This document shows positions 15,609 through 24,904 of a stretch of DNA of 50,619 nucleotides, piece after piece (position 1 is the stretch's first letter; every line of letters starts with the position of its first letter). Under the pieces are notes generated by a model, which saw only the letters and a list, made by a program, of their open reading frames with translations, was not told where the DNA came from and searched no databases. This DNA comes from a bacterium (GTDB taxonomy: Bacteria > UBP14 > UBA6098 > B30-G16). The DNA lies in assembly GCA_021159335.1 (NCBI GenBank), contig JAGGRZ010000010.1, forward strand, positions 1-50,619, written 5' to 3'. Both the position numbers and the translations under genes were made by a program.

Positions 15609-16586
15609 TTATTCTATCCACCATCTTTTTATATGCTCACTAAAATGCAAATAGGTCATTAAGAATATTATCTGAAAGATGGAAACAATAGCGGGATACA
15701 TTGCCATGGCATGACCACTTTTTCCAAAGGTCGTAACTAACAAACCAATCGTTAATGCCACATTTTTACTAACTGTGGTGAACACAATTGCCTGATTATC
15801 CTCATATCTTAATCTTGCCAAATATTTATTAAATATAAGTGCTATGCCTATCATTATTGTATAGAAGCACATTGCAATAGGTGCTACCAATATAACCTTC
15901 CCCCAATGTTCTATTATCAATTTCCCCTTAAGTGCAAAAATCACAAAAATTAATATATAAAGAAATGTCAAAGTAGTTAACGAAAAATATGGTTTAATCT
16001 CCTTAAAGTCTATATTTTTCTTTTCTATCAACCCTTCCCTTGTAATCAAGCCCAAAATCATAGGCAACACAAGAACAAGGACTAAACTTTTAATGACTTC
16101 ACCAAAAGGAATTATGCTACTTCCCATATTCAATAAGTGAATGGTTATTGGGTAAACAATTAATGACAGAATGAAAGCCAATGCTACTATCATGCTTGCT
16201 GAAACCATATTTCCTTTTGATAGTCCGACATATCCTAAACCCATGCTTGAAGCGGGTGCCACTGCCAATAGTAACAATGCAATCTTTATGTCTGGGGGAA
16301 CATGGAACACTGTGCAAAGGAACCAGTATAGAAATGGTGCGGCAACAAAGTTAAAAGATAGTGCGATCGCAATGGTCTTATAAGATGTTTTGACTTTTTT
16401 TAGACCTTCAAAAGAAATATTAACCATCATTGGATATATCATTAAAAACACGATAATCATAAGGTATTTGGAGAGAAATTTTGGAGAGTATGTGTAGCTA
16501 ACAAGAATTCCCAAAATAATTATTAACAAAGTGTAAAGCAGCATGTATTTTGAAAGGTTTTTTACTATCCTATCTATTTTTCTCAT
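15609..16586 (-). CDS. BASS/ACR3-like membrane transporter
   Basis: 325 residues with about ten hydrophobic segments, matching the bile-acid:sodium symporter / ACR3 arsenite-efflux superfamily. Recognisable parts are VFLMIYPMMVNISFEGLKKV near the N-terminus and LLLAVAPASSMGLGYVGLS in the middle, the unwound-helix core of the fold. It would move an organic anion with sodium or extrude a metalloid oxyanion across the inner membrane; the sequence does not decide. ATG 16586 has only a weak ribosome binding site. A GTTAGGTGAA core lies 33 bases before the start and another beyond the stop, so like the neighbouring gene it looks like an inserted single-gene unit. It is AT-rich relative to glnA. Confidence 0.75.
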   Translation of the reverse strand: MRKIDRIVKNLSKYMLLYTLLIIILGILVSYTYSPKFLSKYLMIIVFLMIYPMMVNISFEGLKKVKTSYKTIAIALSFNFVAAPFLYWFLCTVFHVPPDIKIALLLLAVAPASSMGLGYVGLSKGNMVSASMIVALAFILSLIVYPITIHLLNMGSSIIPFGEVIKSLVLVLVLPMILGLITREGLIEKKNIDFKEIKPYFSLTTLTFLYILIFVIFALKGKLIIEHWGKVILVAPIAMCFYTIMIGIALIFNKYLARLRYEDNQAIVFTTVSKNVALTIGLLVTTFGKSGHAMAMYPAIVSIFQIIFLMTYLHFSEHIKRWWIE

Positions 16587-16801: not shown

Positions 16802-17455
16802 CTATTCATCTTTGTGATGTTTTATAACTCTGCCCTCAACCATAAATATTACATCTTCACAAATGTTTGTGGACAAATCCGCTATGCGTTCTAATGAGCG
16901 GGATATTCTTATTAAATGGATGGCTCGTTCGATAGTAGTGGGGTCAGAACTCATATAGGTAATCAGCTCTCTTAAAACTTGATCTCTCAAACCATCAACG
17001 ATAGTATCCTTCTCACATACGGATTTTGCTAATTCTGCATCCTTATTTATAAAAGAATCTATCGCGTTTTTTAACATATATATTGACTCTTCAGCCATTC
17101 TTGGAATATCAATTAAAGGTTTAACAGGTGGTCTTTCTATCAAATATAAAGCACTTTCTGATATATTTACTGCTAAATCTCCTACTCTCTCTAAATCATT
17201 ATTCATTTTCAGAATCATCAAAATAGTCCTTAAATTTCCCGCTTTTGGTTGATATAAAGCGATTAGATTTGTGCATAGTTCATCTAATTCTATTTCTAAC
17301 TCATTCATCTTGGGTTCGTATTCTTTAATCACCTTTTCTAAAATTTCCTTCCTTTTTTCAATGAGTCCCTTAATTGAGCTTTTAACCATATCTTCAGCCA
17401 AACTCGCCATGTCAATCAACTTCTTTTTCAATATATTAATTTTTTCTGTCAACAT
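16802..17455 (-). CDS. phoU: PhoU phosphate signalling protein
   Basis: 217 residues with the duplicated three-helix PhoU fold. The two repeats carry the acidic metal-binding motifs LKMNNDLERVGDLAVNI and IRISRSLERIADLSTNI. PhoU links the Pst importer to the PhoR kinase and silences the Pho response when phosphate is plentiful, at the cytoplasmic face of the inner membrane. The start ATG 17455 follows GGGGGAAAT. It is the last gene of the phosphate operon, 9 bases after pstB, a conserved gene order. Confidence 0.95.
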   Translation of the reverse strand: MLTEKINILKKKLIDMASLAEDMVKSSIKGLIEKRKEILEKVIKEYEPKMNELEIELDELCTNLIALYQPKAGNLRTILMILKMNNDLERVGDLAVNISESALYLIERPPVKPLIDIPRMAEESIYMLKNAIDSFINKDAELAKSVCEKDTIVDGLRDQVLRELITYMSSDPTTIERAIHLIRISRSLERIADLSTNICEDVIFMVEGRVIKHHKDE

Positions 17456-17464
17456 ATTTCCCCC

Positions 17465-18232
17465 TTAGCCAAATTTTCCTATCAAATAATCCTCTGTGCG
17501 CTTATCCTTGGGTCTCGTGAATATTTGCTCTGTTGGACCATACTCGATAAATTCTCCAAGCATAAGAAATGCCACATAGTCCGATACACGCGCCGCTTGT
17601 TGGATACTGTGTGTCACAATAATTATTGTATAATCCTTTTTTAGTTTCTCGAGTAACTCCTCAAGTTTTGCCGTTGCCATAGGGTCTAAAGCTGATGCAG
17701 GCTCATCCAGAAGTATTATTTCGGGCTCAACCGCTAATGCTCTTGCCAAACAAAGTCGTTGCTGTTGTCCACCCGATAGTGCAAGCGCAGAAGTATGTAA
17801 TCTGTCTTTAACCTCATCAAAAAGATTGGCATCTATTAATGCTTTCTCAACTCTCTCCTCCAATTCTCTCCTATCTTTGATTCCATGAATCCTAAGTCCA
17901 TATGCTACATTTTCGAATATTGATTTGGGCAAAGGATTGGGCTTTTGGAAGACCATCCCCACTTTTTTACGAAGTTCATATACATTGATATTGTCAGAGT
18001 ATATATTCTCACCATCGATAAAGATTTGACCTTCAACCCTTGCTTCATCAATTAGCTCGATCATTCTGTTGATGCACCGAAGAAAAGTGGATTTACCGCA
18101 TCCTGATGGTCCCATTATAGCAGTTATTTTATTTTGTTTTATAGATATATTATTATTAATCAGGACATGTTTATTGCCAAACCAGACATTTAAATTTTTA
18201 ACAATTATTTTGTACTCAGAATTATTTACCAC
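17465..18232 (-). CDS. pstB: phosphate ABC transporter ATP-binding protein
   Basis: 255 residues. Walker A is GPSGCGKST (residues 41-49), the ABC signature is [15 protein letters not shown], and Walker B is [36 protein letters not shown] is the typical PstB Q-loop region. It hydrolyses ATP to drive phosphate import through PstC and PstA at the inner membrane. It overlaps pstA by 7 bases, and phoU follows after 9 bases. Confidence 0.97.
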
Positions 18233-19074
18233 TTCCTCGCCCTCCTTCTCTTTGTTCGTATTAGTATAGCTATCAGGTTTATTCCCACCACAAGGATAAG
18301 AAGCACCACGGCGGTTCCATAGGCGATTGGCACTTGTAATTCGGGCTTTGTGCCCTCGGTCATCAAGGCATAAATATGGTAAGGTAGTGCCATTACTTCA
18401 TCAAATATTGACTTTGGCAGTCGCCTCGTATAAAAAGTGGCAGCGGTAAACAAAATTGGTGCAGTTTCTCCAGCTGCTCGTCCTATTCCAAGGATAACGC
18501 CAGTTAGGATACCTGGCATAGCACTGGGAAGAACGATATGCGTTATGGTTTGCCATTTGCTTGCACCTAATGCATAAGATGCATCCCTAAATGTTTGCGG
18601 CACAGCAAGAATAGCCTCTTCAGACGCCCTTATTATCGTGGGTAAGATAAGCATCCCTAAGGTAAGGGCTCCCGCAAGGATTGACACGCCAAAGCCAAAT
18701 AATTTTACAAACACAGCAAGCCCAAAAAGTCCGAATACAACGGAAGGTGTGCCAGCAAGGCTATTTATGCCGATTCTTATAACTCTTGTTAATTTAGATG
18801 ATTTTGCATATTCAGTTAAATAAATAGCACTAAAAACTCCTAACGGTAAAGAAAAAAGTATTGCTCCTATAGAAAGGCAAAGTGTGCCAACAATAGCAGG
18901 AAATATACCACCTTTTGTCATACCTTCTTTCGGGAAATCAAAAATAAAAGATAGATTCAACACTTTAAATCCGCGGACAAATATAAACGAAAGGATTATA
19001 AAAAGCGAAAGTATTACTATCAGACACGCTAATCGGCATAACGAAAATCCTATGATTTGTTTATATTTTCTCAT
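18226..19074 (-). CDS. pstA: phosphate ABC transporter permease
   Basis: 282 residues with six predicted membrane segments. The permease signature [20 protein letters not shown] and the coupling loop ([20 protein letters not shown]) identify PstA. With PstC it forms the inner-membrane phosphate channel. The gene overlaps pstC by 14 bases and pstB by 7, as expected for tightly coupled subunits. Confidence 0.96.
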
Positions 19075-19930
19075 AACCCCTTTCTTTTATATAATTGGCT
19101 AAAATATTGAGACCTACTGTTATCAAAAACAAAACTGCGCTGATAGCGAAAAGAGCATGGTAATGAGGACTCCCCGCTGGCGCCTCTCCCATTTCAGCTG
19201 CTATAGTTGCCGTCATAGGTCTAACGGGCTGCAAAAATGAGTGAGGTATTACTGCTGCACCACCTGCAACCATGAGCACAGTCATAGTCTCACCGATTGC
19301 CCTGCCCAAACCCAAAATTATAGCTGTCAAAATGCCTGATTTCGCAGCAGGTATGACTACTTTGGTGATCGTTTCCCACTTGGTGGCTCCAAGTGCATAT
19401 GATGCCTCTTTTATCTCCTTAGGAACAGATGTTATGGCATCTTCAGCAATACTGATAATCGTTGGAAGTGCCATAATTCCAAGAAGACAAGAAGCAGTAA
19501 AAGCAGTCAGCCCTACTGGTATGTTAAAGAGCTTTTGTATAAGTGGTGCAACAACTACCATGCCAAAGAATCCGTAAATTACCGAGGGTATACCTGCCAG
19601 AAGTTCTATCATAGGTTTTATAGTCTCTTTTATCCTTGGATGGCTTAACTCAGCCGTATATATTGCTGAACCAACCCCCAAAGGAACAGCAATAAGCATT
19701 GCCCCCAAAGTAACGAGAAATGAAGCCAAAATGAGCGGTAATATACCATACTCTGGTGGCTCATGTGTTGGGTGCCAGGATTTGCCCAGAATGAATTTTA
19801 TAGGACTTACCACTTTAAATATTGGTAGCCCCTCCTTAAATAAGGAGGCGGCAATCCCGAAAAGAAAGATAATTGATAGGAAAGCGCAAAAGAAAAGTAT
19901 GCATTCAATATGTTTATCCTTCTTTAGCAT
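19061..19930 (-). CDS. pstC: phosphate ABC transporter permease
   Basis: 289 residues with six predicted membrane segments. The PstC signature IELLAGIPSVIYGFFGMVVV and the coupling loop (EDAITSVPKEIKEASYALGA) are intact. It pairs with PstA in the phosphate importer. A 78-base gap separates it from pstS; an ATATG start and no strong ribosome binding site are seen there. Confidence 0.96.
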   Translation of the reverse strand: MLKKDKHIECILFFCAFLSIIFLFGIAASLFKEGLPIFKVVSPIKFILGKSWHPTHEPPEYGILPLILASFLVTLGAMLIAVPLGVGSAIYTAELSHPRIKETIKPMIELLAGIPSVIYGFFGMVVVAPLIQKLFNIPVGLTAFTASCLLGIMALPTIISIAEDAITSVPKEIKEASYALGATKWETITKVVIPAAKSGILTAIILGLGRAIGETMTVLMVAGGAAVIPHSFLQPVRPMTATIAAEMGEAPAGSPHYHALFAISAVLFLITVGLNILANYIKERGYEKI

Positions 19931-20008: not shown

Positions 20009-20860
20009 TTACTCGCTTGTCGGCTTAACCGGGACAAAGCCTATTTTGTCAACTATTTTCTGCCCCTCCGGACTGAGAACGAAATCTATGAATTCCTTTG
20101 CTAATCCCGTAGGCTTACCATCAGTATAGAGGTAAAGAGGTCTTGCGAGTTTATATTTACCGGACACAACTGTCTCCTTAGTGGGCTCTACACCATCCAC
20201 TGCCAGTGCTTTAACTTTGGACGAAATATATCCAAGTCCTACATAGCCAATAGCACCTGGTGTTTTTTCCACAGTCGTTGCTACTGCCTTATTGGATGCC
20301 AGCATAAGCGCATCTGCTCTCGTCTTTGCACCCTTTAGGACTATCTTCTTAAACACCTCAAAGGTGCCTGATGCGACATCCCTTGATATTACCACAATCT
20401 TTCCCGGCTTTCCACCGACATCTTTCCAGTTGCTTATTTTACCAGTGTAAATATCCTTTAGTTGTGCTAAGGTTATTTCGGACAATGGATTTGTTGGATG
20501 CACAATAATAGCGATACCATCTTTGGCTATTACAGTGGCTAAAGGATTTATACCTTTACCCCTTGCAGATTTAAGTTCTTTTGTCTTCATTGGTCTGGAT
20601 GCCATAGCAATGTCACAAGTGCCATCGATGAGTGCAGCGATACCAACGCCAGACCCTCCACCTCTTACGCTGATATTCACATCCGGATGTTGGTCCATGA
20701 ATTTTTCGGCACATAATTGAGCGATAGGGAGAACAGTGGTCGAACCTGTCAATACGAGCGTTCTTCTCCCAGCAAATGCCATCTCCGAGGTAACCATCTG
20801 CGCAGCTATTAATGCCACTATTATAGCTGCATACATTATTTTTGTGCCCCACATCTTCAT
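20009..20860 (-). CDS. pstS: periplasmic phosphate-binding protein
   Basis: 283 residues with an N-terminal signal peptide (about 30 residues ending MAFA) and no lipobox cysteine, so it is probably a free periplasmic protein. Family motifs are LTGSTTVLPIAQLCAEKF near the N-terminus, SVRGGGSGVGIAALIDGTCD and VVISRDVASGTFEVF; the last two contribute phosphate ligands. It delivers phosphate to PstCA. ATG 20860 follows GGAGGTGT. It lies 15 bases after the porin gene, which suggests linked expression of outer-membrane entry and periplasmic capture. Confidence 0.95.
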   Translation of the reverse strand: MKMWGTKIMYAAIIVALIAAQMVTSEMAFAGRRTLVLTGSTTVLPIAQLCAEKFMDQHPDVNISVRGGGSGVGIAALIDGTCDIAMASRPMKTKELKSARGKGINPLATVIAKDGIAIIVHPTNPLSEITLAQLKDIYTGKISNWKDVGGKPGKIVVISRDVASGTFEVFKKIVLKGAKTRADALMLASNKAVATTVEKTPGAIGYVGLGYISSKVKALAVDGVEPTKETVVSGKYKLARPLYLYTDGKPTGLAKEFIDFVLSPEGQKIVDKIGFVPVKPTSE

Positions 20861-20875
20861 GTTACACCTCCTTTT

Positions 20876-21886
20876 TTAAAAAGGGTTTGTTGCAAATTCC
20901 CACCTAAGTTGCATTAAAAACTCATTGTCTGCTTCTTTGTTCGAGTCTTCATATTGTTTCCGTTCGAAATTTACTTGAAGCATTACACCTGGTTTGCCTT
21001 TACTCAACTTGACAATGTAATAATTGAAGCCGCCTATAATTCGATAGTGGGCATCTTTTTCTTCATCGGTATTTCTGTCCCAGTAATCAACTCTACCAAC
21101 CAATTCAAGATTAGGATTGAGCTTCAGAATTGGCATTATCATAACACCTAAGCCAGTAAGTTCGGGTTCGCCTGTTTTAGTCATAATTAACTCGCTCCAA
21201 AAATCGATTGGTCCGCGTGCAACCCTGCATATACCCGCCACAAGAAGTCTTTTTGATTCTTCCTTCTTCTCATAGAGCGCAGAACCACCAATAGTTAAGC
21301 CTGGTATGGGTATAAATCTAACATTACCAACAAGCGCTGGATATTTATCAACATTGCTCTTGTATTTCTTGTAACCTTCTCCGTTATAAACTCCGAGTTG
21401 CCATTCTCCCATTCCTCTGGGAATATCTGCATTTGCAGTTACGCCGTAGTCAGCACTTGCTACTACCTTCTCTTTATCTTCAAGTGTCTTCTCGATCGTC
21501 ACATATTTCCAATCATAAACAGTTCCCCAGTAAATTTTCTGTAGCCCAACCGTAATCTTGCCCTCGGGAATAATGCCTTTAAAGTCAACATATCCGTATT
21601 TGAGTTTGAGCCCGGCACCGTGCGGGTCCCTGTCACTTGAGAATATGTCAACATTTACCCTACAGCTTATTTTATCAGTGAATGCATGCTCCCAGCGTAA
21701 ATAACCACGCTCCAGTCCGAAATAACTCGCATCTAATTCTGTGAGTTCACCTTCCGCTTTGGCTGTGTATCTGAACCATGTGTAGGCTTTAAGCTGCGAC
21801 TTACCAGGCGCAAGCCCTGCGTAGGCACACTGCGCGTAAAAAGTAACTCCCAAGATGACTAACAACATCTTTGTGAACTTACTCAT
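20876..21886 (-). CDS. outer-membrane porin-like protein, phosphate regulon
   Basis: 336 residues with a signal peptide (KMLLVILGVTFYAQCAYA) and alternating beta-strand pattern ending in a C-terminal Phe (FATNPF), the usual outer-membrane barrel insertion mark. It resembles phosphate-selective porins O/P in layout (FGLERGYLRWEHAFTDKI, KITVGLQKIYWG). Its place directly before pstS in the Pho operon points to uptake of phosphate or polyphosphate across the outer membrane, though selectivity is inferred from context alone. GGAGGTGAAC lies upstream of ATG 21886. Confidence 0.8.
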   Translation of the reverse strand: MSKFTKMLLVILGVTFYAQCAYAGLAPGKSQLKAYTWFRYTAKAEGELTELDASYFGLERGYLRWEHAFTDKISCRVNVDIFSSDRDPHGAGLKLKYGYVDFKGIIPEGKITVGLQKIYWGTVYDWKYVTIEKTLEDKEKVVASADYGVTANADIPRGMGEWQLGVYNGEGYKKYKSNVDKYPALVGNVRFIPIPGLTIGGSALYEKKEESKRLLVAGICRVARGPIDFWSELIMTKTGEPELTGLGVMIMPILKLNPNLELVGRVDYWDRNTDEEKDAHYRIIGGFNYYIVKLSKGKPGVMLQVNFERKQYEDSNKEADNEFLMQLRWEFATNPF

Positions 21887-21907
21887 CGTTCACCTCCTTT
21901 CGTTTTG

Positions 21908-22444
21908 TTATATATTTTTGTTATTAATCGCATATAAATTTTCCGTTAAGTTTTGGTTAATTTTTATTTTTCTTATAAGTAGTTGTTTAATCTGCCTTAC
22001 TTTTTCTCCACTAATGCCTAAGTCCTTGGATATTTGGGATAAGGTTTTTCCTTCCCAAAAATGAAGATTGAGGATTTCTTGTTCAAGAGATGATAGAATT
22101 TTATTAAAAGAAGATATATCCAAATCGTTATTTTCATGAGTTTTTTCGACAGGAAGATTTTCTAAAATTTCCTCTTTTAATTCCACTGAATAAAGGGTTT
22201 GAATTTTTTCTTTTCGAACAGCATCTAAAATTCTTTTCTTTATCCAATAAAATGCATAAGTGGAAAATTTTGCTCCCTTGGATGCATCAAATCTTTTTTC
22301 TGCCTCAAGAAGTCCTAAAAATCCTTCTTGAACCAAATCCTCAAAAGGAACTCCTTCTTGTTTATATTTAGATGCGATTGATTTAATTATAGGTAAATAA
22401 TCCTGATACAATTTTTCCATCCTTATTTTGTTCGTTTTTTCCAT
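21908..22444 (-). CDS. small sigma-70 family RNA polymerase sigma factor
   Basis: 178 residues. Region 2 spans about residues 15-72, with EDLVQEGFLGLLEAEKRFD and FSTYAFYWIKKRI (the -10 recognition helix region). Region 4 is the C-terminal helix-turn-helix with SLEQEILNLHFWEG, LSQISKDLGIS and EKVRQIKQLL. Region 3 and the long region 1 are missing, so it is an alternative sigma factor, closer in build to SigB/SigH-like or sporulation-type proteins than to RpoD. It lies between phoR and the porin gene, 58 and 21 bases from them, inside the phosphate regulon. No anti-sigma gene is visible. A link to phosphate starvation is inferred from position. Confidence 0.88.
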   Translation of the reverse strand: MEKTNKIRMEKLYQDYLPIIKSIASKYKQEGVPFEDLVQEGFLGLLEAEKRFDASKGAKFSTYAFYWIKKRILDAVRKEKIQTLYSVELKEEILENLPVEKTHENNDLDISSFNKILSSLEQEILNLHFWEGKTLSQISKDLGISGEKVRQIKQLLIRKIKINQNLTENLYAINNKNI

Positions 22445-22502
22445 CTCATATGTTTATACAAAATGGATATTAAAGGAGTATAAAGGGTAAATTAATTTTT
22501 GG

Positions 22503-24230
22503 TTAAGAGAGATTGGCGGGAAAAGTAATTATAAATTCTGTTCCTTCACCAGGTGAACTTTTTACATCTATTTTTCCATTGTGTAAAAGCACGATATGTT
22601 TGACAATGGAAAGCCCTAATCCCGTTCCTCCAAGTTTTTTAGAGCGAGATTTATCTACTACATAAAACCTTTCAAATATTCTGTCAAGATGCTCTCTTGG
22701 TATTCCAATTCCTGTATCTTTTATCTTTACAACTACTTTTTTGTAACTTTGTTTTAAAGAGACGGTTACATTCCCTTTTTCTGTATATTTAATAGCATTA
22801 TCTATCAAATTTATAAACATCTGCTCTAATTTGAAGGGGTCTCCTTTGATAACAGGGGTGCCTTCACATATCAAATTTAATTCTAAACCTTTTTCTTTCG
22901 CTTTTTGCTCGAATATTTTGGATACATCTTTAGCTATTTCTTCTAAGTTCACTTCCTTTTTTATTTGGGTTAATCCTTTTTCCTCCAGCTCGGAAAGCAA
23001 AAGTAAATCACCAACAATGTTTATAAGGCGTTCGGTATGTTTTTTGATAATCTCTAAATAGTGTTTTGCATCGCCTTCCACTTCTTCTTCCAAAGTTTCA
23101 ACATACCCTTTAATAGCTGTAAGAGGAGTTCGGAGTTCATGAGAAACATTTACTACAAAGTCCTTCTTTATCTTCTCAAGCTTTTTGAATTCAGTAATAT
23201 CATGAAAAACAACTATCAACTCCTCTTTAGAAGGTATAAAAACGAAGCTGGTTAAGAACACTTTTTCATTTAGCTCTATCTCTTCCGAAGAAATTCTTTT
23301 ACCTCTTTTTGCTTTCTCTATCAGTTGAGCTATCTCGGGATTTCTCATGACTTCCCACCAAAACTTTCCTTCAGGATTTGTTTTAACAATCCTTTTAAAA
23401 CTTTCGTTATAAAGAATAATCCTGCCATTTTTATCCAGAACTAATAAGCCTTCTTCGAGGGAAGAAACAATGCTATTCAATTCCTCTTGTTTTAAGGTCA
23501 AGTCTACAAATAGACGCTTTAATTCCTTAGACATTTCATTGAAACTATCGGCAAGTATCCCTATCTCATCATTTCTTTTAAAACTTACTTTCGCAGAAAA
23601 ATCACCGTTAGCTAACCTTTTAGATGCTAAGACCAGCTCTTTTAGGGGACGAGATAAATTTTTTGAAAAGAAAGTTGCCCCTAATAAGGAAAGAAAAGTT
23701 ATAAAAATCACTACCCCAAAAATTTTAAGTTTTAGACTATTAAGTAATTTATTTATATCTTTTAAAAACAAACTTACCCTCAAAATGCCTAAGAATTTTC
23801 CCTTTGATTTAATAGGTATTGCTACATATAACATTTCTTCCTTAACAGTAGTGCTGAACCGTAGAGATTTGCCAAAACCTTCTTTTTTGGCTTGTTTAAC
23901 CTCTGGTCTATTGTTGTGGTTTTCCATGAAACGCGGGTCTTTTTCTGAATCCGCCAAAACTTTTCCTGAAGGAGCGATAATAGTAATTCTTGTTTTTATA
24001 TTTTTACCTATTTCTTTCGTTAAGGAATCTAATCTTCCGAAATCTTTTTCTTCTATGATAGGCAAAACCTTGAGTTTAAGAGTATAAGCCAAATTTTTAA
24101 GGTCCAATGATAGAGTGTTTATATAATGTGTCCTTATTGTCCTGAAAGAAAATATAAATATCAAAATCGAGAGTAATAAAATAATCAAGCAAAACATAGA
24201 AAAAATTTTAAAAAATATAGAGCGTTTCAT
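22503..24230 (-). CDS. phoR: PhoR-type sensor histidine kinase
   Basis: 575 residues: first membrane helix ~4-30, periplasmic sensor domain ~30-165, second helix ~170-190, HAMP ~190-240, PAS (SLEEGLLVLDKNGRIILYNE), HisKA with VNVSHELRTPLTAIKGY (phospho-accepting H364), and HATPase with NLIDNAIKYTEKG, DTGIGIPREH and GGTGLGLSIVKHIV. It autophosphorylates and passes the phosphate to PhoB. The large periplasmic domain is longer than in classic PhoR, so it may sense a signal directly as well as through PhoU/Pst. It overlaps phoB by 4 bases and is very AT-rich. Confidence 0.94.
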   Translation of the reverse strand: MKRSIFFKIFSMFCLIILLLSILIFIFSFRTIRTHYINTLSLDLKNLAYTLKLKVLPIIEEKDFGRLDSLTKEIGKNIKTRITIIAPSGKVLADSEKDPRFMENHNNRPEVKQAKKEGFGKSLRFSTTVKEEMLYVAIPIKSKGKFLGILRVSLFLKDINKLLNSLKLKIFGVVIFITFLSLLGATFFSKNLSRPLKELVLASKRLANGDFSAKVSFKRNDEIGILADSFNEMSKELKRLFVDLTLKQEELNSIVSSLEEGLLVLDKNGRIILYNESFKRIVKTNPEGKFWWEVMRNPEIAQLIEKAKRGKRISSEEIELNEKVFLTSFVFIPSKEELIVVFHDITEFKKLEKIKKDFVVNVSHELRTPLTAIKGYVETLEEEVEGDAKHYLEIIKKHTERLINIVGDLLLLSELEEKGLTQIKKEVNLEEIAKDVSKIFEQKAKEKGLELNLICEGTPVIKGDPFKLEQMFINLIDNAIKYTEKGNVTVSLKQSYKKVVVKIKDTGIGIPREHLDRIFERFYVVDKSRSKKLGGTGLGLSIVKHIVLLHNGKIDVKSSPGEGTEFIITFPANLS

Positions 24231-24904
24231 TCTTCTATTTTGTAGCCAATGCCTCTTACACTTTTTATATATTTTTTGGCTTTACCCAATTTTTCTCTTA
24301 AATTTTTAATATGAACATCTATGGTTCTATCCAAAACCGCTTTGTCATGTCCCCATAGATGGTCTAAAATCTGGTTTCTTGTGAAAACCCAACCTTTTTT
24401 AGAAGCTAAGACTTTTAATATCCTAAATTCCGTTGGGGTTAAATCTATTTTTTTATTTTCCACAAAAACTTCATATTTGTTGAGATCTATTAACAGAATG
24501 TCTCCTATTTTAATTTTTTTGCTGGTATCTTGCGTTTTTCTTCTCAAGACTGCTTTCACTCTTGCAACTAATTCTCTTGGGGAGAAAGGCTTGGTCACAT
24601 AATCATCTGCTCCCAACTCCAAACCTAAAACTTTATCTGTTTCGGTAGCACGAGCAGTAAGCATAATAATGGGAATAGCGCTAAAATCTTGGTTTGATTT
24701 TAAATATTTGCAAATCTCAATACCATCTGAATCGGGAAGCATAAGGTCTAATATTATAAGGTCGGGCGTTTTGGAAGATAGAAATTTAAAGAAGCTTTCT
24801 GCATTCAGGAATCCCTCAACTCTAAAGCCAGCTCTATTAAGATGCAACGATACAAGTTCTAAAATATCAGGCTCATCATCTATTACTGCTATTAATTCGT
24901 TCAT
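24227..24904 (-). CDS. phoB: PhoB-type response regulator
   Basis: 225 residues: a receiver domain with acidic pair D9-D10, phospho-acceptor D53 in LIILDLMLPDSDG and conserved lysine in YVTKPFSP, followed by an OmpR/PhoB winged helix (VFTRNQILDHLWGHDKAVLD, RTIDVHIKNLREKLGK, VRGIGYKIEE). It is the DNA-binding partner of PhoR and the first gene of the phosphate block, so autoregulation is likely. The 326 bp upstream have no gene. Confidence 0.94.
   Translation of the reverse strand: MNELIAVIDDEPDILELVSLHLNRAGFRVEGFLNAESFFKFLSSKTPDLIILDLMLPDSDGIEICKYLKSNQDFSAIPIIMLTARATETDKVLGLELGADDYVTKPFSPRELVARVKAVLRRKTQDTSKKIKIGDILLIDLNKYEVFVENKKIDLTPTEFRILKVLASKKGWVFTRNQILDHLWGHDKAVLDRTIDVHIKNLREKLGKAKKYIKSVRGIGYKIEE

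Follow-up and report, generated by a model that had tools for sequence, protein, structure and literature searches.

The window, that is, the whole 50,619-nucleotide stretch of DNA that was analysed, carries a phosphate gene cluster on its minus strand in the order phoB-phoR-sigma-porin-like-pstS-pstC-pstA-pstB-phoU (Table 1). The Pho regulon genes PstSCAB-PhoU and PhoB/PhoR are thus present and linked. The small sigma gene is separated by 58 nt from phoR and by 21 nt from the porin-like gene, all three being co-directional, exactly as the preliminary description had recorded. PhoB and PhoR are best-fitting names suggested by sequence and context, the scores of both proteins being under the curated cut-offs; with the NCBIfam models phoR_proteo and PnpS the kinase scored 308.5 (cut-off 334.2) and 375.5 (cut-off 400), respectively. 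At the place equivalent to that of the porin-like gene, porin-family matches were obtained in locus L034 (Porin_5, 4e-45) and, weakly, in L035. Downstream of phoU lies an SBF/Acr3-like transporter gene (15609-16586, minus strand), for which the best NCBIfam match is ACR3 arsenite efflux, with a score far under the cut-off (103 vs 283 bits).

Table 1. Genes and predicted promoter sites of the phosphate cluster, with positions in the window.
Feature	Position	Strand	Basis
PhoB-like response regulator	24227..24904	minus	best match PhoB, 250.6 vs cut-off 296.2 bits; context
PhoR-like sensor kinase	22503..24230	minus	best matches PnpS and PhoR, both under equivalog cut-offs; context
Promoter site A, CTTAAC repeats and -10 (G)TATAAA	22453..22507	minus	predicted; upstream of sigma gene, overlaps phoR stop
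Sigma-70-family small sigma, regions 2 and 4, 178 aa	21908..22444	minus	Pfam/NCBIfam; family profile 258 bits
Promoter site B, CTTAAC repeats and -10 (A)TATAAC	21907..21961	minus	predicted; at 3' end of sigma gene, upstream of porin-pst
Porin-like outer-membrane protein	20876..21886	minus	name from position and homologues; itself without Pfam match
PstS phosphate-binding protein	20009..20860	minus	TIGR02136, 294 vs 206.6 bits
PstC permease	19061..19930	minus	TIGR02138, 317.8 vs 196.5 bits
PstA permease	18226..19074	minus	TIGR00974, 307.6 vs 193.5 bits
PstB ATPase	17465..18232	minus	TIGR00972, 396.9 vs 343.2 bits
PhoU	16802..17455	minus	TIGR02135, 193.2 vs 130.3 bits

The sigma ORF (22444-21908) opens with ATG. 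Its translated product matches the Pfam models Sigma70_r2 at residues 12-80 (1.4e-22) and Sigma70_r4 at residues 117-160 (2.1e-9), both above the gathering score, and region 3 gave no Pfam match in the 178 residues. The protein also scores 109.3 bits with TIGR02937 of NCBIfam (cut-off 42.9). The earlier reading of a sigma-70-family protein with regions 2 and 4 only was thus confirmed. The linker between the two regions is poorly conserved in the family alignment, and in the predicted structure (pTM 0.46) the two domains are modelled with confidence, unlike residues 89-113. The best Foldseek matches of this model are nearly all primary-type sigma chains, with TM-scores of 0.31-0.41 to the query length for a model of that pTM. 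By sequence, the 60 solved chains among the matches listed are SigA, RpoD, RpoS, SigB, HrdB, FliA and RpoH. Region 2 is nearest to SigA/RpoD. In having regions 2 and 4 only, without region 1.1 or region 3, the 178-residue protein is like the ECF (group 4) sigmas. A plain ECF sigma was nevertheless rejected, as the ECF-type region 4 model PF08281 gave 21.5 bits, under its cut-off of 25.7, PF04545 passing instead, and the nearest relatives are group 1-3 sigmas. No anti-sigma gene was recognised by general domain annotation among the neighbour genes identified.

A scan of the species-genome collection with the single protein gave 50 loci. Both sigma domains are matched at an identity of at least 37% in nine of them, and each of the nine belongs to a Pho/Pst cluster. 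The remaining 41, among which L054 and L080 were counted with both domains reached at 30% identity, have no Pho/Pst cluster; an isolated ABC ATPase or histidine kinase gene, seen in 5 of these loci, is the nearest they come to one. A family profile was made from 10 rows, the nine scan loci and the window. Family members score 122-258 bits with it, vs less than 100 for the other sigmas reported in the same genomes, one 548-aa frame at 123.7 excepted. Profile searches detected the family sigma in 64 of 124 Cloacimonadota genomes (the phylum of locus L039), in 5 of 147 genomes of the WOR-3 phylum (that of L035), in 1 of 384 genomes of the phylum of the Omnitrophota-titled locus L033 and in 1 of 17 genomes of the window's phylum, the window genome alone. 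In a domain-wide sample of 386 genomes it was found in two, the window being one of them. An extra member, L034, comes from a record titled Acidobacteria. The following were dropped before counting: G183 and G186 (584 and 583 aa) from the 66 matches of the Cloacimonadota search, G403 (548 aa, 123.7 bits) from the 2 matches in the Omnitrophota-titled phylum, and three sigmas of 342-389 aa from the 5 domain-wide matches, where G949 shares coordinates with G085. The family is monophyletic (support 0.88) in a tree built from region 2 that also included 76 other sigmas.

At all 72 distinct family loci (64 from Cloacimonadota and 8 others) the recognised neighbours are phoB, phoR, pst or porin genes. 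This association is not built in, because the family searches took no neighbourhood input. The nearest recognised upstream gene on the same strand is phoR in 64 of the 72 loci, and in 62 it is no more than 240 nt away; at L037 and L036 phoR is upstream of the sigma gene at 2.3 and 5.8 kb. The pst genes are co-directional, convergent or elsewhere, and therefore the family locus is not one frozen block. Among the 124 Cloacimonadota genomes, 54 have both the sigma and PstS, 10 the sigma only, 8 PstS only and 52 neither (Fisher 5e-16). The small sigma next to Pho genes is a distinct family and not a local accident, and when a conserved neighbourhood of the phoR-sigma-porin-pst kind was looked for, as the preliminary description had proposed, a Pho/Pst neighbourhood was found in 72/72 loci. 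Loss of this position in relatives had been named there as evidence to the contrary. It was partly seen within the window's phylum, where a single genome of the 17 has the sigma, though 11 are also without a PstS match.

A rigid element is shared by many loci in the interval between the sigma and porin genes, with CTTAAC at 0 and +11, CTTTATA at +22, CTTAAC at +33 and a -10 at +49. Tandem 11-bp direct repeats at 0, +11 and +33, with the -10 at fixed spacing, have the sequence pattern of a Pho box. A scan for the three repeats and TATAAT at the fixed spacings gave 39 matches in the 72 loci, vs 0.5 in mononucleotide shuffles. Neither the TTATA stretch nor the G at +48 had been in the search pattern, and both emerged from the aligned sites; the columns between the repeats otherwise vary freely. 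The CTTAAC repeats occur with the same layout in genomes without the family sigma as well, and would therefore be PhoB elements, not sigma elements. CTTTATA at +22 was considered as a purely sigma-specific -35; it is present in sigma-less genomes too, although the T's at +25 and +27 are enriched where the sigma is present.

In the 2.06-Mb genome of the window the upstream pattern has two good matches, sites A and B (0 and 1 mismatch), and two more with 3 mismatches, which is the control level. A wide regulon in this genome was thus not found with the pattern used. The -10 of site B falls on the sigma stop codon, and the C-terminal LTENLYA of the sigma, with close counterparts in L033 and L037, coincides with the site. 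As site B is embedded in the coding sequence, the conservation of LTENLYA may reflect a constraint on DNA rather than on protein. The -10 of site A ends 8 nt upstream of the annotated sigma ATG (22444-22453, minus strand), an arrangement that would go with a leaderless message or with a start at Met9. The start codon is uncertain because of this short distance and because the family alignment begins at about Met9, and the true start may be Met9 (22420). Where pst was retrieved as a separate locus, 24 of 27 such loci still had the promoter (20-59 bits vs 7.4 for the highest shuffle); the three without it (L183, L185, L201) are sequences cut at, or close to, porin or pstS. A PWM scan covering a further 400 kb of sigma-bearing genomes gave no match. 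The composite promoter is restricted to these places. In some Cloacimonadota loci (L161, L199, L200) a G-type site also points toward phoB, where by its position it would close a feedback loop at the operon head. The expectation of a shared non-canonical promoter was thereby borne out, a composite Pho box with a GTAnAA -10 being found upstream of both the sigma gene and porin-pst. Since each of these has its own predicted promoter, they probably do not form one simple operon, and the earlier description of the sigma gene as embedded in the phosphate operon is to be qualified accordingly.

The base before the -10 was compared between sites of sigma-bearing loci and sigma-less sites, chosen by a single selection rule. 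G occupies this position at 41/42 sites in sigma-bearing loci vs 9/51 in a sigma-less set that was pattern-selected and includes chance matches (p 2e-16), and these counts overstate independence, since sites and sigmas may have moved together by gene transfer, leaving the loci not independent. No other column outside the selection pattern differs as strongly. After clustering at 75% the contrast is 29/30 vs 8/45, and at 65% it is 11/12 vs 8/41. The last T of the -10 is relaxed with the sigma (T at 19/42 sites vs 38/51 without it). Sigma-less sites with a queried gene downstream have 6 A, 5 T, 2 C and 3 G in 16 rows, in which the G011 site is counted twice; the 15 distinct sites have 5 A. Relatives of the same class without the full sigma (G010, G011, G013) carry A there. 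A lineage-wide preference for G before the -10 was rejected, as housekeeping-like promoters in sigma-bearing genomes have G in only 1 of 14 cases and G precedes 3 of 25 TATAAT words. Some sites are contrary to the trend, however. Site B of the window has A, not G; G808, which is 97% complete, has a G-type site upstream of porin-pst and the family sigma was not found in it; and the bins G145, G147 and G151 show G at 6/6 sites, with the sigma not found. Missing contigs may account for its absence from these three bins.

A corresponding difference is seen in the protein. Residue 70 is Lys in 71 of the 72 family members vs Gln in 64 of 76 other sigmas, among them the two further sigmas of the window genome that were part of this comparison. 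We take this Gln to be the counterpart of Q437 of E. coli sigma-70, a reader of the -10.

Further arrangements were seen in relatives. G011, from the window's class, encodes an 84-aa protein with region 4 only (L162:2219-2473, minus strand) between a Pho-type promoter and porin-pstS; its phoBR genes are on another contig, and the family sigma was not detected there. Cloacimonadota genomes in which pstS is present twice have a further G-type Pho promoter that is directed away from porin-pst (L171:3-2084, minus strand; L172 from 3157, plus strand). The gene behind it has a PHP-like N-terminus (PHP_C match, L172) and a GT4-type glycosyltransferase C-terminus (matches, L171), and could possibly serve lipid remodelling under phosphate shortage. 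Two adjacent pstS genes, ~45-50% and 60% identical to the query, are present in several Cloacimonadota (L169-L174, L181-L183, L201).

Alternatively, PhoB and the housekeeping sigma could together serve the Pho-box promoters, as they do in E. coli, and the small sigma would then simply be carried in the cluster and control, for example, a few unlinked genes. This would agree with the near-canonical -10 of site B (TATAAC after A), with the G-type site in G808, and with other genomes in which Pho repeats of the same layout appear to work without the family sigma. The change in the -10, however, tracks the sigma and is absent from housekeeping-like promoters of the same genomes, and the sigma gene itself is preceded by one of the two good matches in the window's own genome. 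We therefore consider such a housekeeping role unlikely. It is slightly less probable still that the G merely marks the descent of a transferred phosphate cassette, in which promoter and genes travelled together, and has nothing to do with sigma recognition: G-type sites are present as well where pst is separate from the sigma gene, the G signal survives clustering at 65%, and other inter-repeat columns vary freely. Outside Cloacimonadota, the sigma is patchy, and PhoB, PhoR and PhoU are 79-86% identical between records titled as different phyla, which suggests transfer; cassette and promoter were likely inherited together.

The protein might also be an adaptor and no longer a full sigma, its region 4 bridging PhoB and polymerase in the manner of phage appropriators and aiding the housekeeping holoenzyme. 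Region 4 is known to bind PhoB (PMC4496699), and G011 retains a region-4-only protein behind a Pho promoter. Against this, region 2 is kept in 72/72 members, is the better conserved part and has the family-specific residue in its -10-reading helix, and the G011 promoter has lost the G. The combination in G011 of region 4 alone with no G fits a reading of the G by region 2, yet keeps an adaptor role thinkable. For the family sigma itself we hold that role to be very improbable.

In textbook phosphate control PhoB works with the general-purpose (housekeeping) sigma. PhoB of E. coli activates promoters without a -35 element, region 4 being bound to PhoB, and the pho box replaces the -35 there (PMC4496699, PMC4415409). 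These promoters resemble the present ones in that 11-bp direct repeats end ~10 bp before the -10. A PhoB-sigma4 structure exists for E. coli, and region 4 would be expected on PhoB in both systems. They differ in that E. coli uses the housekeeping sigma, whereas the present system would use a dedicated sigma with a GTAnAA -10. PhoB also works with an alternative sigma, sigma-VreI (PUMA3) of Pseudomonas aeruginosa, which is made under phosphate limitation and, to start transcription, requires PhoB, a pho box and its own -10/-35 (PMC4971064). It is an ECF sigma with a receptor, VreA, and an anti-sigma, VreR, regulating virulence genes and not pst; its pho box is upstream of the -35 and its own operon is independent of sigma-VreI (PMC4971064). 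Partners of this receptor/anti-sigma type are not in the window cluster, which has phoBR, the porin-like gene, pst and phoU only. Sigma-VreI is the nearest precedent, although the two sigmas are not the same and control different regulons. Sigma-E of Bacillus subtilis serves sporulation and is not known to be encoded next to phoR or to be devoted to phosphate. PhoP of this species, working with sigma-A and sigma-E, is likewise a Pho regulator that uses more than one sigma (PMC4415409). No paper on a sigma devoted to phosphate, whether encoded next to phoR or from these phyla, was found in the open-access literature, where VreI, RpoS/SigB-type sigmas and AfsS surfaced instead.

Taken together, the results make it quite probable that the sigma is dedicated to the phosphate regulon, with PhoB and a self-amplifying sigma driving phosphate uptake. 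The earlier proposal of a dedicated sigma extending or amplifying the phosphate response is supported by the kept neighbourhood and the shared promoter. We infer the following course of events. At low phosphate PhoR would phosphorylate PhoB, and PhoB dimers would bind the tandem 11-bp CTTAAC repeats. Polymerase with the small sigma, and not the housekeeping sigma, would then be recruited and read the GTAnAA -10. The G/T at -13/-12 would likely be recognised by the family-specific Lys70 of region 2.4, and region 4 would sit on PhoB and on the CTTTATA stretch around -35. Site A would serve the sigma gene itself and site B porin-pstSCAB-phoU; because site A precedes the sigma gene, the phosphate loop would be self-feeding. 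By analogy, the PhoB-region 4 contact of E. coli joined to the sigma-VreI logic would be the most economical reading. The evidence supports a phylum-scale variant of control by PhoB and an alternative sigma, in which the sigma is not a typical ECF factor.

On balance, we lean towards a wider view. In Cloacimonadota and scattered candidate phyla control of the core phosphate response would have passed to a dedicated sigma, encoded behind phoR, in place of the housekeeping one, through a two-key promoter (PhoB repeats and a GTAnAA read via the Gln-to-Lys change in region 2.4) with positive feedback. In G011 the sigma would have shrunk to the region-4-only protein behind a Pho promoter, and in this way a free-standing adaptor between PhoB and polymerase could arise. 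If this is true, a core nutrient regulon can move wholesale to a dedicated form of polymerase. Uncultured phyla would gain a readable promoter, and the phosphate regulon would be predictable from sequence in many metagenome-assembled genomes. The family would also provide a natural paired data set, sigma residue 70 vs the base at -13, for how region 2.4 sets -10 specificity.
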